From the NCBI RefSeq assembly GCF_000165465.1, contig NC_017455.1:806001-870000 (forward strand): DNA of 64,000 nucleotides. The letters are read 5' to 3'. Below, piece after piece: positions 30,931 to 34,649 of the stretch. How positions within the stretch are numbered: position 1 is the stretch's first letter; the number at the start of each line of letters is the position of its first letter. The notes under the pieces are model-generated. The model was not told where the DNA came from, did not search any database, and saw only the letters and a program-made list of their open reading frames with translations. The DNA is from Halanaerobium praevalens DSM 2228. GTDB taxonomy: Bacteria; Bacillota; Halanaerobiia; Halanaerobiales; Halanaerobiaceae. The position numbers and the translations under genes are program-made.

Positions 30931-30996
30931 TTGACATTTAACTAAATAATATAGATTAAGAAATAGTTTAATTATTATTTTTAAGAAAGGAAAACT

Positions 30997-33225
30997 ATGG
31001 ATAAGGTAATAAAAGTAGTAGTTGATCTTCCACTTCGTAAGTTAAATAAAGAATTTGATTACTTACTACCAGATAAATTAAAGTCAAAAATTAAAATTGG
31101 TCAAATTGTTAAAGTTCCATTTGGGCGCCGTAAAATTGCTGCTTTTGTAACTAAAATAAATGTTAAATCGGATTTAGAAAAATCAAAGTTAAAAAAAGTT
31201 GATTCTTTATTATATAAAGAAAGTTTTTTTGATCAAAAACTTTTAGAACTTTTTTATTGGACTGCCTCTTATTATCATGCTTATTTAGCTCAAGTAATTA
31301 AATCAGCTTTACCTGCTGGAATTACAGCTAAGAAAATTAAAAAGAAAAAAATAGAATATTTAAAAGTTAATTCTGAAATTAGTAATTTTAAAAAAGAATT
31401 ATCTAAATTAAATCAAAAAGCACCTAAACAATTTTTGATTTTGAAATATTTATTAGAAAACAAAAAAAAACAAAATAAATTAAAAAAAGTTTTAAAATAT
31501 GCTTCTACTTCTCGTCAAACTGTTTACCGTTTAATAGAAAAAAAATTAGCAGTTTTATATACTGATACTAAGAGTAGACAACCTAAGCTTGATTCTAAAT
31601 TAGAAACTAAAAAAACAGTTAAATTTAATTTAAAAGCCTCAGAATCTAAATTAATAAATAAAATAGCTAATAATTTTTATCAAAAAAATAGTTATTTATT
31701 AAGAACTAGTAGTAATAATAAAAAAAGATTTATCTTTGTTTTAAAATTGATTGAAAAACTTTTGCAAAAAGATAAAAATGTCATTCTTTTGATACCAGAA
31801 ATTGAAAAAGATTATGTTTTTTTAGAACAGTTAAATGATTATTTTGAAGATCAAATTGCTTTTTTACACAGTAAACTTTCAAAAGGAGAAGTTTTTGATC
31901 AATGGCAGTTAATTAAAACTCATAAAGTCAAATTGGCAGTTGGAGCTAGATCAGCTATTTTTGCCCCCTTCGCTAAAGTTGATGCTGTAATTATTATGGA
32001 AGAAAATAATGAAAATTATAAAGGGCAAGAACATCCTTTGTATCAAGCTAGGCAAGTTGCTGCTAAACGTTTACAAAGTTCTAACTCAACTTTGATATTG
32101 GAATCTCCTTTTCCTTCACTTGAAAGTAAAAATCATGCTGATTTAGGTGAATATCAAGAGTTGAGAATAGATTCAGTAGTTGATAAAAGAAAACAGAAAG
32201 TGATTGATTTAAAAAATGAAGTAGAAAAAGGAAACTTAGGCAACTTAAGTCAAGAATTAAAAAAAGAAATTGAAAAAAATTTAAAGCAAAAAAATAAGAT
32301 GATTTTATTTTTAAATAGAAGAGGTACTGCAAATTATATAATTTGTAGAAAATGTGGTCATGTTATTAAATGTCAACATTGTGATATTTCTTTAAGTTAT
32401 CATCAAAAACAAAACAAATTAAGTTGTCATTATTGTGGCTTAGAAAAAAAGTTACCTCAAACTTGTCCTGACTGTGGAAGTTCTTTTATTGCTCAAGCTG
32501 GTTTAGGTACTCAAAAAATAATTGATGAATTAAAAGAGCTCTATTCAGATTATGCTATTATTAGAGTTGATGGTGATTTAAAAGAAAGTGAATTAAAAAA
32601 GAGACTTAATGATTTTAAAAATAATAAAATTGATATTTTAGTAGGAACTTCTATTATTTTAAAAAATCAATTTTATAATCAACTTAAATTTTTAGCAGTT
32701 ATTTCTGCAGATACTACTTTAAATAACTCTAATTTTAGAGCAGCAGAAAATAATTTTTTTCTTATTAATCAGTTAAAAAGTATGCTTGTTAATTCTGAAG
32801 CTAGCACTTTTTTAGTCCAAAGTTATGAACCTGAACATTATAGTTTAAAAGCTGCTTTGACTTCTAAAAAGGAATTATTCTATAAACAAGAAAAACAAAT
32901 TAGAAAGCATAGGAATTATCCACCCTTTTGTCGGCTTTTAAACATTATAATTAGTTCTCAATCGGAAAAAAAGGCAGAAAATATAAGCAAAAAATTATCT
33001 CTTTTTTTAGAACAATATCAAAATAAATTTTTAGAAAAGTTAGGAGCTGCACCTGCTGTTTTAAGTAAAATAAGGAAAAAATATCGCTGGCAAATAATTT
33101 TAAAATTTGATTCAATGCGTAATCGGGAATATATAATCCAGTTAATTGAAAAAAAATTTGTTGAAGCTAATAATGAACAAAGAGTAGAAATTCGTATTGA
33201 TGTAGATCCCTATCAAATGTTATAA
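30997..33225 (+). CDS. priA: PriA-like primosomal protein with degenerate helicase motifs
   Basis: PriA restarts stalled replication forks. The 742-residue frame is intact and of normal length. The N-terminal DNA-binding part is present (residues 1-105, FDYLLP, GQIVKVPFGRR). All eight zinc cysteines are present in four pairs (450/453, 459/462, 477/480, 490/493). The ATPase motifs are not. Walker A, normally GVTGSGKTEVY, is RTSSNNKKRFIFV at 236-248. The DEEH box is MEEN at 334-337. The motif V region is GTSIILKN. Motif VI, normally QVAGRAGR, is QLKSMLVN at 592-599. PSLES and EPEHY are kept. Loss of ATPase with a kept fold suggests a structural loader. It lies 22 bases before def. Confidence 0.88.
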   Translation: MDKVIKVVVDLPLRKLNKEFDYLLPDKLKSKIKIGQIVKVPFGRRKIAAFVTKINVKSDLEKSKLKKVDSLLYKESFFDQKLLELFYWTASYYHAYLAQVIKSALPAGITAKKIKKKKIEYLKVNSEISNFKKELSKLNQKAPKQFLILKYLLENKKKQNKLKKVLKYASTSRQTVYRLIEKKLAVLYTDTKSRQPKLDSKLETKKTVKFNLKASESKLINKIANNFYQKNSYLLRTSSNNKKRFIFVLKLIEKLLQKDKNVILLIPEIEKDYVFLEQLNDYFEDQIAFLHSKLSKGEVFDQWQLIKTHKVKLAVGARSAIFAPFAKVDAVIIMEENNENYKGQEHPLYQARQVAAKRLQSSNSTLILESPFPSLESKNHADLGEYQELRIDSVVDKRKQKVIDLKNEVEKGNLGNLSQELKKEIEKNLKQKNKMILFLNRRGTANYIICRKCGHVIKCQHCDISLSYHQKQNKLSCHYCGLEKKLPQTCPDCGSSFIAQAGLGTQKIIDELKELYSDYAIIRVDGDLKESELKKRLNDFKNNKIDILVGTSIILKNQFYNQLKFLAVISADTTLNNSNFRAAENNFFLINQLKSMLVNSEASTFLVQSYEPEHYSLKAALTSKKELFYKQEKQIRKHRNYPPFCRLLNIIISSQSEKKAENISKKLSLFLEQYQNKFLEKLGAAPAVLSKIRKKYRWQIILKFDSMRNREYIIQLIEKKFVEANNEQRVEIRIDVDPYQML

Positions 33226-33247: not shown

Positions 33248-33700
33248 ATGGCTCTTTTAAAAGTAAGAGAAATTGGAGATCCAGTTTTAAGAACTAAGGC
33301 TAAAGAAATAGATGAGGTTAATAAAAAAACTAATGAATTAATAGATAATATGTTTGAAACAATGTATGCTGAAGATGGTGTAGGATTAGCAGCACCTCAA
33401 ATTGGGATGTTAAAAAGAATTGCTGTTGTTGATATCAGAGAAGGAAATAAAGTTATTTTAATTAATCCAGAAATTATAGAAAAAGAAGGCAAGGCAATTA
33501 TGGAAGAAGGATGTTTGAGTATTCCTGGTGAAACTGGTGATGTGATTCGAGCAGAAAAAATTAAAGTTAAAAGCTTAAATAGAAAGGGCAAAGAAGTTAC
33601 TTTTCTAGCAGAAGGATTTGAAGCAAGGGCAATTCAGCATGAAATTGATCATTTAGATGGTATTTTATTTGTCGATAAAATTATAAAAATTGCGGAGTGA
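33248..33700 (+). CDS. def: Peptide deformylase
   Basis: Def removes the formyl group from new N-termini. The 150-residue product has the three metal-site motifs: GVGLAAPQIG, EGCLSIPG (Cys ligand) and QHEIDHLDG (two His and the catalytic Glu). An AGGAGGT site precedes the ATG. It forms the conserved pair with fmt, which adds the formyl group to initiator tRNA. Confidence 0.97.
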   Translation: MALLKVREIGDPVLRTKAKEIDEVNKKTNELIDNMFETMYAEDGVGLAAPQIGMLKRIAVVDIREGNKVILINPEIIEKEGKAIMEEGCLSIPGETGDVIRAEKIKVKSLNRKGKEVTFLAEGFEARAIQHEIDHLDGILFVDKIIKIAE

Positions 33701-33704
33701 TTTT

Positions 33705-34649
33705 ATGAAAATAATATTTATGGGAACTCCTGAATTTGCAGTTCCTGCTTTAGTTGAATTAGAAAATGATGAAGAAATTGAGATTAAGGCTGTAGTTACT
33801 CAGCCTGATCGTAAAAGTGGTAGAGGCCAAAAAATTAATTATTCTGATATTAAAGAAAAAGCTTTAGCTTTAGATTTAGAAATTTTACAAAGTGAAAATG
33901 TAAATCAAAAAGATTTTTTAGAAAAATTAAAAGAAATAGAACCAGATTTTATAGTAGTTGTGGCTTTTGGTCAAAAATTAAGTCCTGAATTATTAGCAAT
34001 ACCTAAGTTTGGTTGTATTAATCTCCATGCTTCTTTATTACCTAAATATAGAGGTTCTAGTCCAATCCATAAGGCAATAATAGATGGCAAAAGTAAAACT
34101 GGTAATACAACAATGTATATGGCTGAAGGTTGGGATGATGGAGATATAATTTATCAACAAGAGATTGAAATAAAAAGAGATGATACAGTCGGTGATTTAC
34201 ATGATAAAATGGCTAAAAAAGGGGCGAATTTGCTGCTTAAAACTCTAAAAGATATAAAAACAGCTGAGGCACCTAAAATTAGTCAAAATGATTCTGAAGC
34301 AACTTTTGCTTATAAAATAGATAAATCTTTAGGTAGCATTGATTGGAATCAAAAAGCTGAAAATATTTATAATTTAATTCGAGGTGTCAATCCTTGGCCT
34401 GGAGCTTATAGTGTTTTAAATGGTGAAAAAATTAAAATTTGGGAAAGTAAAATAAGTGATTATCCAGATACAAATTTAAAACCTGGTACAATTATTAAAG
34501 CAAATCAAAAAGATGGTATTTTAGTTCAGACAGCTTCTGGTGTAATTTCTATTGAAAAATTACAGCTCCCAGGAGGGAAAAAAATAGACTATTATTCATT
34601 CTTAAATGGCCATCAATTACCAGAAAAAGAAAAGTTTGACAAGGCCTAA
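33705..34649 (+). CDS. fmt: Methionyl-tRNA formyltransferase
   Basis: Fmt formylates initiator Met-tRNA using 10-formyl-tetrahydrofolate. The 314-residue product begins MKIIFMGTPEFAVPAL and has the formyl-transfer site INLHASLLPKYRGSSPI. WDDGDIIYQ follows, and there is a C-terminal OB-like domain (about residues 205-310). I use ATG 33705, which has GGAGTGA ahead of it; a TTG at 33690 in the same frame overlaps def and is less likely. Confidence 0.96.
   Translation: MKIIFMGTPEFAVPALVELENDEEIEIKAVVTQPDRKSGRGQKINYSDIKEKALALDLEILQSENVNQKDFLEKLKEIEPDFIVVVAFGQKLSPELLAIPKFGCINLHASLLPKYRGSSPIHKAIIDGKSKTGNTTMYMAEGWDDGDIIYQQEIEIKRDDTVGDLHDKMAKKGANLLLKTLKDIKTAEAPKISQNDSEATFAYKIDKSLGSIDWNQKAENIYNLIRGVNPWPGAYSVLNGEKIKIWESKISDYPDTNLKPGTIIKANQKDGILVQTASGVISIEKLQLPGGKKIDYYSFLNGHQLPEKEKFDKA

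Follow-up and report, generated by a model that had tools for sequence, protein, structure and literature searches.

Identity and context of the gene

The helicase of PriA is dispensable in laboratory Escherichia coli, yet it is conserved in most bacteria. Can a PriA that has lost this motor persist as the only, and still functional, PriA of a lineage? The question is raised by a locus of Halanaerobium praevalens DSM 2228, analysed here as a window of 64,000 nucleotides (contig NC_017455.1, positions 806,001–870,000), in which a first-pass annotation had described a full-length priA with eroded ATPase motifs.

All features are given in window coordinates and lie on the forward strand. The open reading frame (30997..33225, 742 codons, stop included) begins with ATG, carries no frameshift or premature stop and is preceded by a likely ribosome-binding site read from the sequence, GAAAGGA (30985..30991), 5 bases ahead of the start codon. 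The predicted protein scored 433.7 bits against the TIGR00595 priA profile (cut-off 230.35), and three PriA domains exceeded their Pfam cut-offs (PF17764 PriA_3primeBD, PF18319 Zn_ribbon_PriA and PF18074 PriA_C); the full length of 742 residues described for this frame was borne out. The DEAD domain was not found in the protein by the Pfam search, and Helicase_C stayed under its cut-off. PriA chains were the only matches in a sequence search of the PDB, and the protein grouped inside the PriA of its own order in a phylogenetic tree. Orthology was also supported by synteny, with the conserved neighbours def and fmt (33248..34649) downstream; the gene order lgt-metK-priA-def-fmt is shared with the sister genus. 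The G + C content of priA was 0.246, compared with 0.291 for the window.

The H. praevalens genome is a single contig of 2,309,262 bases (99.99% complete), and a TIGR00595 search of this contig found no second priA. The remaining matches were weak, partial and located in other helicase-like reading frames, one of them the RecG of the window. The possibility of another intact priA in this genome was therefore rejected, and the gene is single-copy.

Loss of the helicase motifs

Alignment with 21 intact PriAs from the same order placed the motif strings quoted in the first-pass annotation (Walker A, MEEN, GTSIILKN and QLKSMLVN) exactly at the expected motif positions. At motif I (Walker A; residues 236–248, 31702..31740), where intact PriAs carry LLHGVTGSGKTEVYI, the window protein carries LLRTSSNNKKRFIFVL, and the whole position reads RTSSNNKKRFIFV. 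The DEEHE of motif II (Walker B; residues 334–338, 31996..32010) is replaced by MEENN. Motif V (residues 550–562, 32644..32682) reads GTSIILKNQFYNQ, with GTSIILKNQFY in place of GTQMVAKGHDY, and motif VI (residues 592–599, 32770..32793) reads QLKSMLVN instead of QVAGRTGR. The loss had been counted as affecting these four motifs, each of which is indeed lost, but the count was too low: motif Ia is partly lost (PEIEKD for PEISLT; residues 264–273, 31786..31815) and motif III is lost (ESPFPS for GSATPS; residues 369–374, 32101..32118), so that six motifs are lost or broken. A whole-protein motif search found no P-loop, DExH/D or QxxGRxGR elsewhere in the protein, and displacement of intact motifs, including Walker A and DEEH, within PriA was rejected. 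The protein lacks the residues for ATP binding, for hydrolysis and for coupling hydrolysis to movement, and its ATPase activity has presumably been lost together with these motifs.

The changes were concentrated in the motor. Among 158 positions invariant in the 21 intact PriAs, 34 were changed in all 10 Halanaerobium genomes, and 21 of these 34 fell in motifs I, Ia, II, III, V and VI, with none in the 3′-DNA-binding domain or the C-terminal domain. Changed invariant positions accounted for 21 of 46 in the motifs versus 13 of 112 elsewhere (Fisher p = 6.6e-6, for columns that are not independent).

Parts kept and predicted fold

Outside the motifs, the architecture of PriA is retained. The 3′-DNA-binding domain (residues 6–106, 31012..31314) matched PF17764 at 1.4e-26, and the C-terminal domain (residues 643–738, 32923..33210) matched PF18074 at 7.2e-20 and kept 10 of 12 invariant positions. 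The cysteine-rich region (residues 450–493, 32344..32475; PF18319) kept its eight zinc cysteines, at residues 450, 453, 459, 462, 477, 480, 490 and 493, which agrees with the initial description of an N-terminal DNA-binding part and a complete cysteine set. Within the motor itself, all 10 genomes keep motif Ib in full (GARSAIFAP; residues 316–324, 31942..31968), including each of its 7 invariant positions, and keep most of the aromatic-rich loop region (residues 339–358, 32011..32070), with 6 of 8.

An AlphaFold2 model, computed with the window protein plus eleven others from related loci as input, reached a mean pLDDT of 86 and a pTM of 0.86, and its best structure matches in the PDB were all PriA. 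VIA-align comparisons gave Z 32.4 over 683 residues (rmsd 4.0) with 4nl4 and Z 37.8 over 586 residues (rmsd 3.4) with 6dcr, a winged-helix-deleted E. coli PriA; non-PriA helicase-fold proteins began at Z 18 and were matched over the motor lobes. The PriA fold, including both RecA-like lobes, is thus predicted to be kept.

Distribution within the order

The motif-less PriA was found in all 10 Halanaerobium genomes having a full-length gene; the two genomes without one were 75%–83% complete. The PriA of the sister genus (L034) is also motif-less but differently worded (DQEH, GTRMAVKSEY). Across the clade, all 11 members carry other residues at Walker A, DEEH and motif VI. A sequencing error or strain-specific defect was rejected because these 11 genomes agree in the motif-less state, as do eight named related-locus records, a set that overlaps with them. 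The motifs were intact in the family's third genus (L033) and in every other readable PriA of the order. In a PriA tree built without the motif columns, the deep branches of which were weakly supported, Halanaerobium and the sister genus formed a clade with an ultrafast bootstrap of 100, with L033 as its sister. Because this support was obtained with the motif columns removed, one ancestral loss would suffice, and the simplest history places that loss ahead of the divergence of the two genera. The family offers a clean natural contrast: Halanaerobium and its sister genus lack the motor, a close relative has it, and the loading operon is the same on either side.

Selection on priA

Omega was estimated with a GY codon model for the ten Halanaerobium genes and for three intact clades. 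The tree-wide value for Halanaerobium was 0.064, against 0.078, 0.077 and 0.039 in the intact clades. By region, omega was 0.061 for the 3′-DNA-binding domain, 0.125 for the winged helix and linker, 0.056 for the C-terminal domain, 0.068 for the first former motor lobe and 0.042 for the second lobe with the zinc region. Given the depth of the tree and the partial saturation of synonymous sites, close pairs were also computed. The closest Halanaerobium pair gave a dN/dS of 0.135 (dS 0.45) and the other pairs 0.206, 0.172 and 0.154, compared with 0.07–0.14 for intact pairs. The gene therefore does not show the value near 1 that would mark neutral drift: both the tree-wide estimate and the close pairs (0.13–0.22) lie well below it. 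Over the former motor lobes, close-pair values were 0.10–0.26 versus 0.03–0.12 in intact pairs, so constraint is somewhat relaxed there. Overall, Halanaerobium priA is under strong constraint, slightly weaker than in active PriA, with ratios far from 1. Strong constraint is not, by itself, proof that replication restart is the function being conserved.

Loading partners and RecG

The replicative-helicase operon of H. praevalens is intact and encodes a DnaD/DnaB-type protein (370 aa, PF07261), a DnaI-like loader (340 aa, P-loop GPIGSGKS) and the helicase, the latter two named by sequence reading. Binding of PriA to the DnaD-like protein is assumed here on the model of the Bacillus subtilis pathway. 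The DnaD-like protein occurred in all 14 family genomes examined, whether the PriA motor was lost or kept, and each genome of the family has a single gene of the DnaD/DnaB type. The idea that a loss of DnaD caused the motor loss was rejected: the intact relative G012 carries the same set, so the two do not correlate. DciA was not found in the Halanaerobium family, and it was rejected as a replacement loader; the search did find it in Deinococcus-Thermus control genomes. The only DciA match in the order was L077 (G030:C56:2778-3035), a 94-aa open frame that was possibly transferred or lies on a stray contig.

RecG in the window keeps all its motifs (GDVGSGKT, DEQH, TATP and QLRGRVGR), as had been stated in the first-pass annotation, where it was proposed as a source of fork remodelling. 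RecG is near-universal in bacteria, and this proposal is therefore not specific to Halanaerobium.

A proposed fork platform independent of ATP

These results lead us to propose, with a probability of roughly 0.8, that the only PriA of Halanaerobium is a clade-wide pseudohelicase acting as an ATP-independent platform for fork recognition and loader recruitment. The protein is in all likelihood functional. Abandoned forks and D-loops would be recognised through the 3′-DNA-binding domain, the winged helix and the aromatic-rich loop, and the surface of the cysteine-rich region and C-terminal domain around lagging-strand single-stranded DNA would also be used. PriA would then recruit the DnaD-like protein and the DnaI-like loader, so that the replicative helicase could be reloaded without ATP being used by PriA. 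Where the lagging arm is double-stranded, unwinding might be left to other helicases or omitted. In E. coli, restart by PriA and PriB in vivo works without the ATPase or helicase of PriA (PMC10175261), and the E. coli PriA domains named for this mechanism are those kept in Halanaerobium, from which we infer an ATP-free platform for fork binding, loader recruitment and restart. The parts retained in PriAs with a dead motor (motif Ib, the aromatic-rich loop, the zinc region and the C-terminal domain) in turn point to what restart needs as distinct from unwinding.

Other readings of the same gene have to be weighed against this platform. If the helicase were simply dispensable, the motifs could be drifting while PriA is being lost. 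Within the genus, I and VI, alone among the former motifs, do vary more than PriA as a whole (pairwise identities of 0.41 and 0.55 vs 0.60), and for the former motor the close-pair dN/dS is roughly double the value in intact relatives. Against such decay, the frame is open over its full length in each of the 10 genomes and in the sister genus, omega is 0.064 and synteny is kept. The other former motifs are, moreover, conserved in a new form: K271 and E369 occur in 10 of 10 Halanaerobium genomes and N337/N338 in 9 of 10, and these fixed or nearly fixed residues fit re-packing rather than drift. Decay is thus already largely refuted and retains very little probability. Selection for a non-helicase role, which had been favoured over decay from the outset, is supported by the clade-wide, motif-less but full-length state, the omega far below 1 and the clustering of losses in the motifs; none of the three refuting conditions named in the first-pass annotation held.

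The derived residues fixed in the genus could also be new interfaces, as expected if PriA now served with different partners as a regulator that binds forks or ssDNA, while restart proceeded by another route. We consider this unlikely, given that the genome has no second priA, that the DnaD-like/DnaI-like loading operon and the fork-binding parts of PriA are kept, and that DnaB binding persists in a PriA proven to be a pseudohelicase (PMC4504706). Residual nucleotide-dependent switching or unwinding, by unconventional residues or a partner ATPase, might be suggested by the two-lobe fold of the predicted model and by the retention of motif IV NRRG and GxGTxK in most genomes. It appears quite improbable: other residues stand in place of the Walker A GKT, the catalytic DEEH and the arginines of motif VI, there is no alternative P-loop, and in E. 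coli PriA one K-to-R substitution in Walker A is enough to abolish the ATPase (cited in PMC4504706).

Recurrence across the phylum

PriA was present in 397 of 398 surveyed genomes of the same phylum, and only a handful scored low. The remaining genome (G254; 96% complete, 220 contigs) gave no match to PriA at an E-value of 1e-20 or below. Further full-length PriAs without Walker A and motif VI, as in Halanaerobium, were L111 (genome G409, of the same class), L109 and L112 (G249 and G383, of one family) and L107 (G269), all placed elsewhere in the PriA tree than Halanaerobium. L111 stood apart from L107, L109 and L112, and both groups stood apart from Halanaerobium; despite the weak deep branches, the three motif-less groups were kept apart by flanking intact relatives (L106, L088–L096 and L033). 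These separate positions imply that the motor was lost at least three times within the phylum, at least two of them beyond Halanaerobium. The low-scoring PriAs of G236 and G287 were rejected as pseudohelicases, their matches being split or cut at contig ends and hence fragments. The genome G293 carries an intact full-length PriA (L106) and a second, partial match, L113 (G293:C23:12027-12938; 380 bits, 542-aa frame).

Loss of the PriA motor might be a recurrent event, having occurred at least three times in the phylum and also in Deinococcus-Thermus and probably in Actinobacteria, and marking lineages in which the lagging arm at forks is always single-stranded or is unwound by another helicase that has taken over the task. 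We regard the chances for and against this generalisation as even. If it is true, PriA unwinding is separable from restart in natural lineages.

Comparison with known PriA proteins

Actinobacterial PriA is annotated in UniProt as lacking helicase motifs, and the Halanaerobium protein had accordingly been suggested to be a second, independent case. This is not right, as the PriA of Deinococcus-Thermus is a pseudohelicase already proven by experiment (PMC4504706) and more losses occur in the phylum of Halanaerobium. Actinobacterial PriA has been described as "smaller and very divergent" (PMC1193525) and corresponds to NCBIfam PRK14873. By profile score, the window protein is an ordinary-type PriA whose motifs were lost later, because it reached 579.5 bits against the ordinary PriA profile (PRK05580.1-3) and 152.8 bits against PRK14873.1-3. 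Our literature search found no paper naming Halanaerobium together with PriA and none on PriA without helicase under that description.

Active PriAs of E. coli and Klebsiella pneumoniae (8fak, 6dgd and 4nl4) share the fold and domains of the window protein (Z 31–38 over most of the chain), but they carry GxTGSGKT, DEEH, SATP, GTQMxxKG and QVxGRxGR, none of which is present in it. The closer parallel is Deinococcus radiodurans PriA, a pseudohelicase without ATPase or unwinding activity that binds ssDNA, forks and DnaB; in an alignment covering 100 genera in 18 phyla, PriA motifs were well conserved, with Deinococcus-Thermus as the notable exception (PMC4504706). As in Halanaerobium, the full PriA architecture and the DNA-binding parts are kept while Walker A and B residues are lost clade-wide. 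Deinococcus is, however, a separate lineage in another phylum, and its helicase loader differs, DciA being absent from Halanaerobium. The loss in Halanaerobium spans motifs I, Ia, II, III, V and VI, whereas the Deinococcus study stresses I and II, with R for the Walker A lysine; the properties of Deinococcus PriA were demonstrated by experiment, whereas Halanaerobium PriA is known here from its sequence and predicted fold. This rare kind of pseudohelicase is thus already known, and Halanaerobium would be a further, ordinary member of it; what is new is the lineage and the recurrence.
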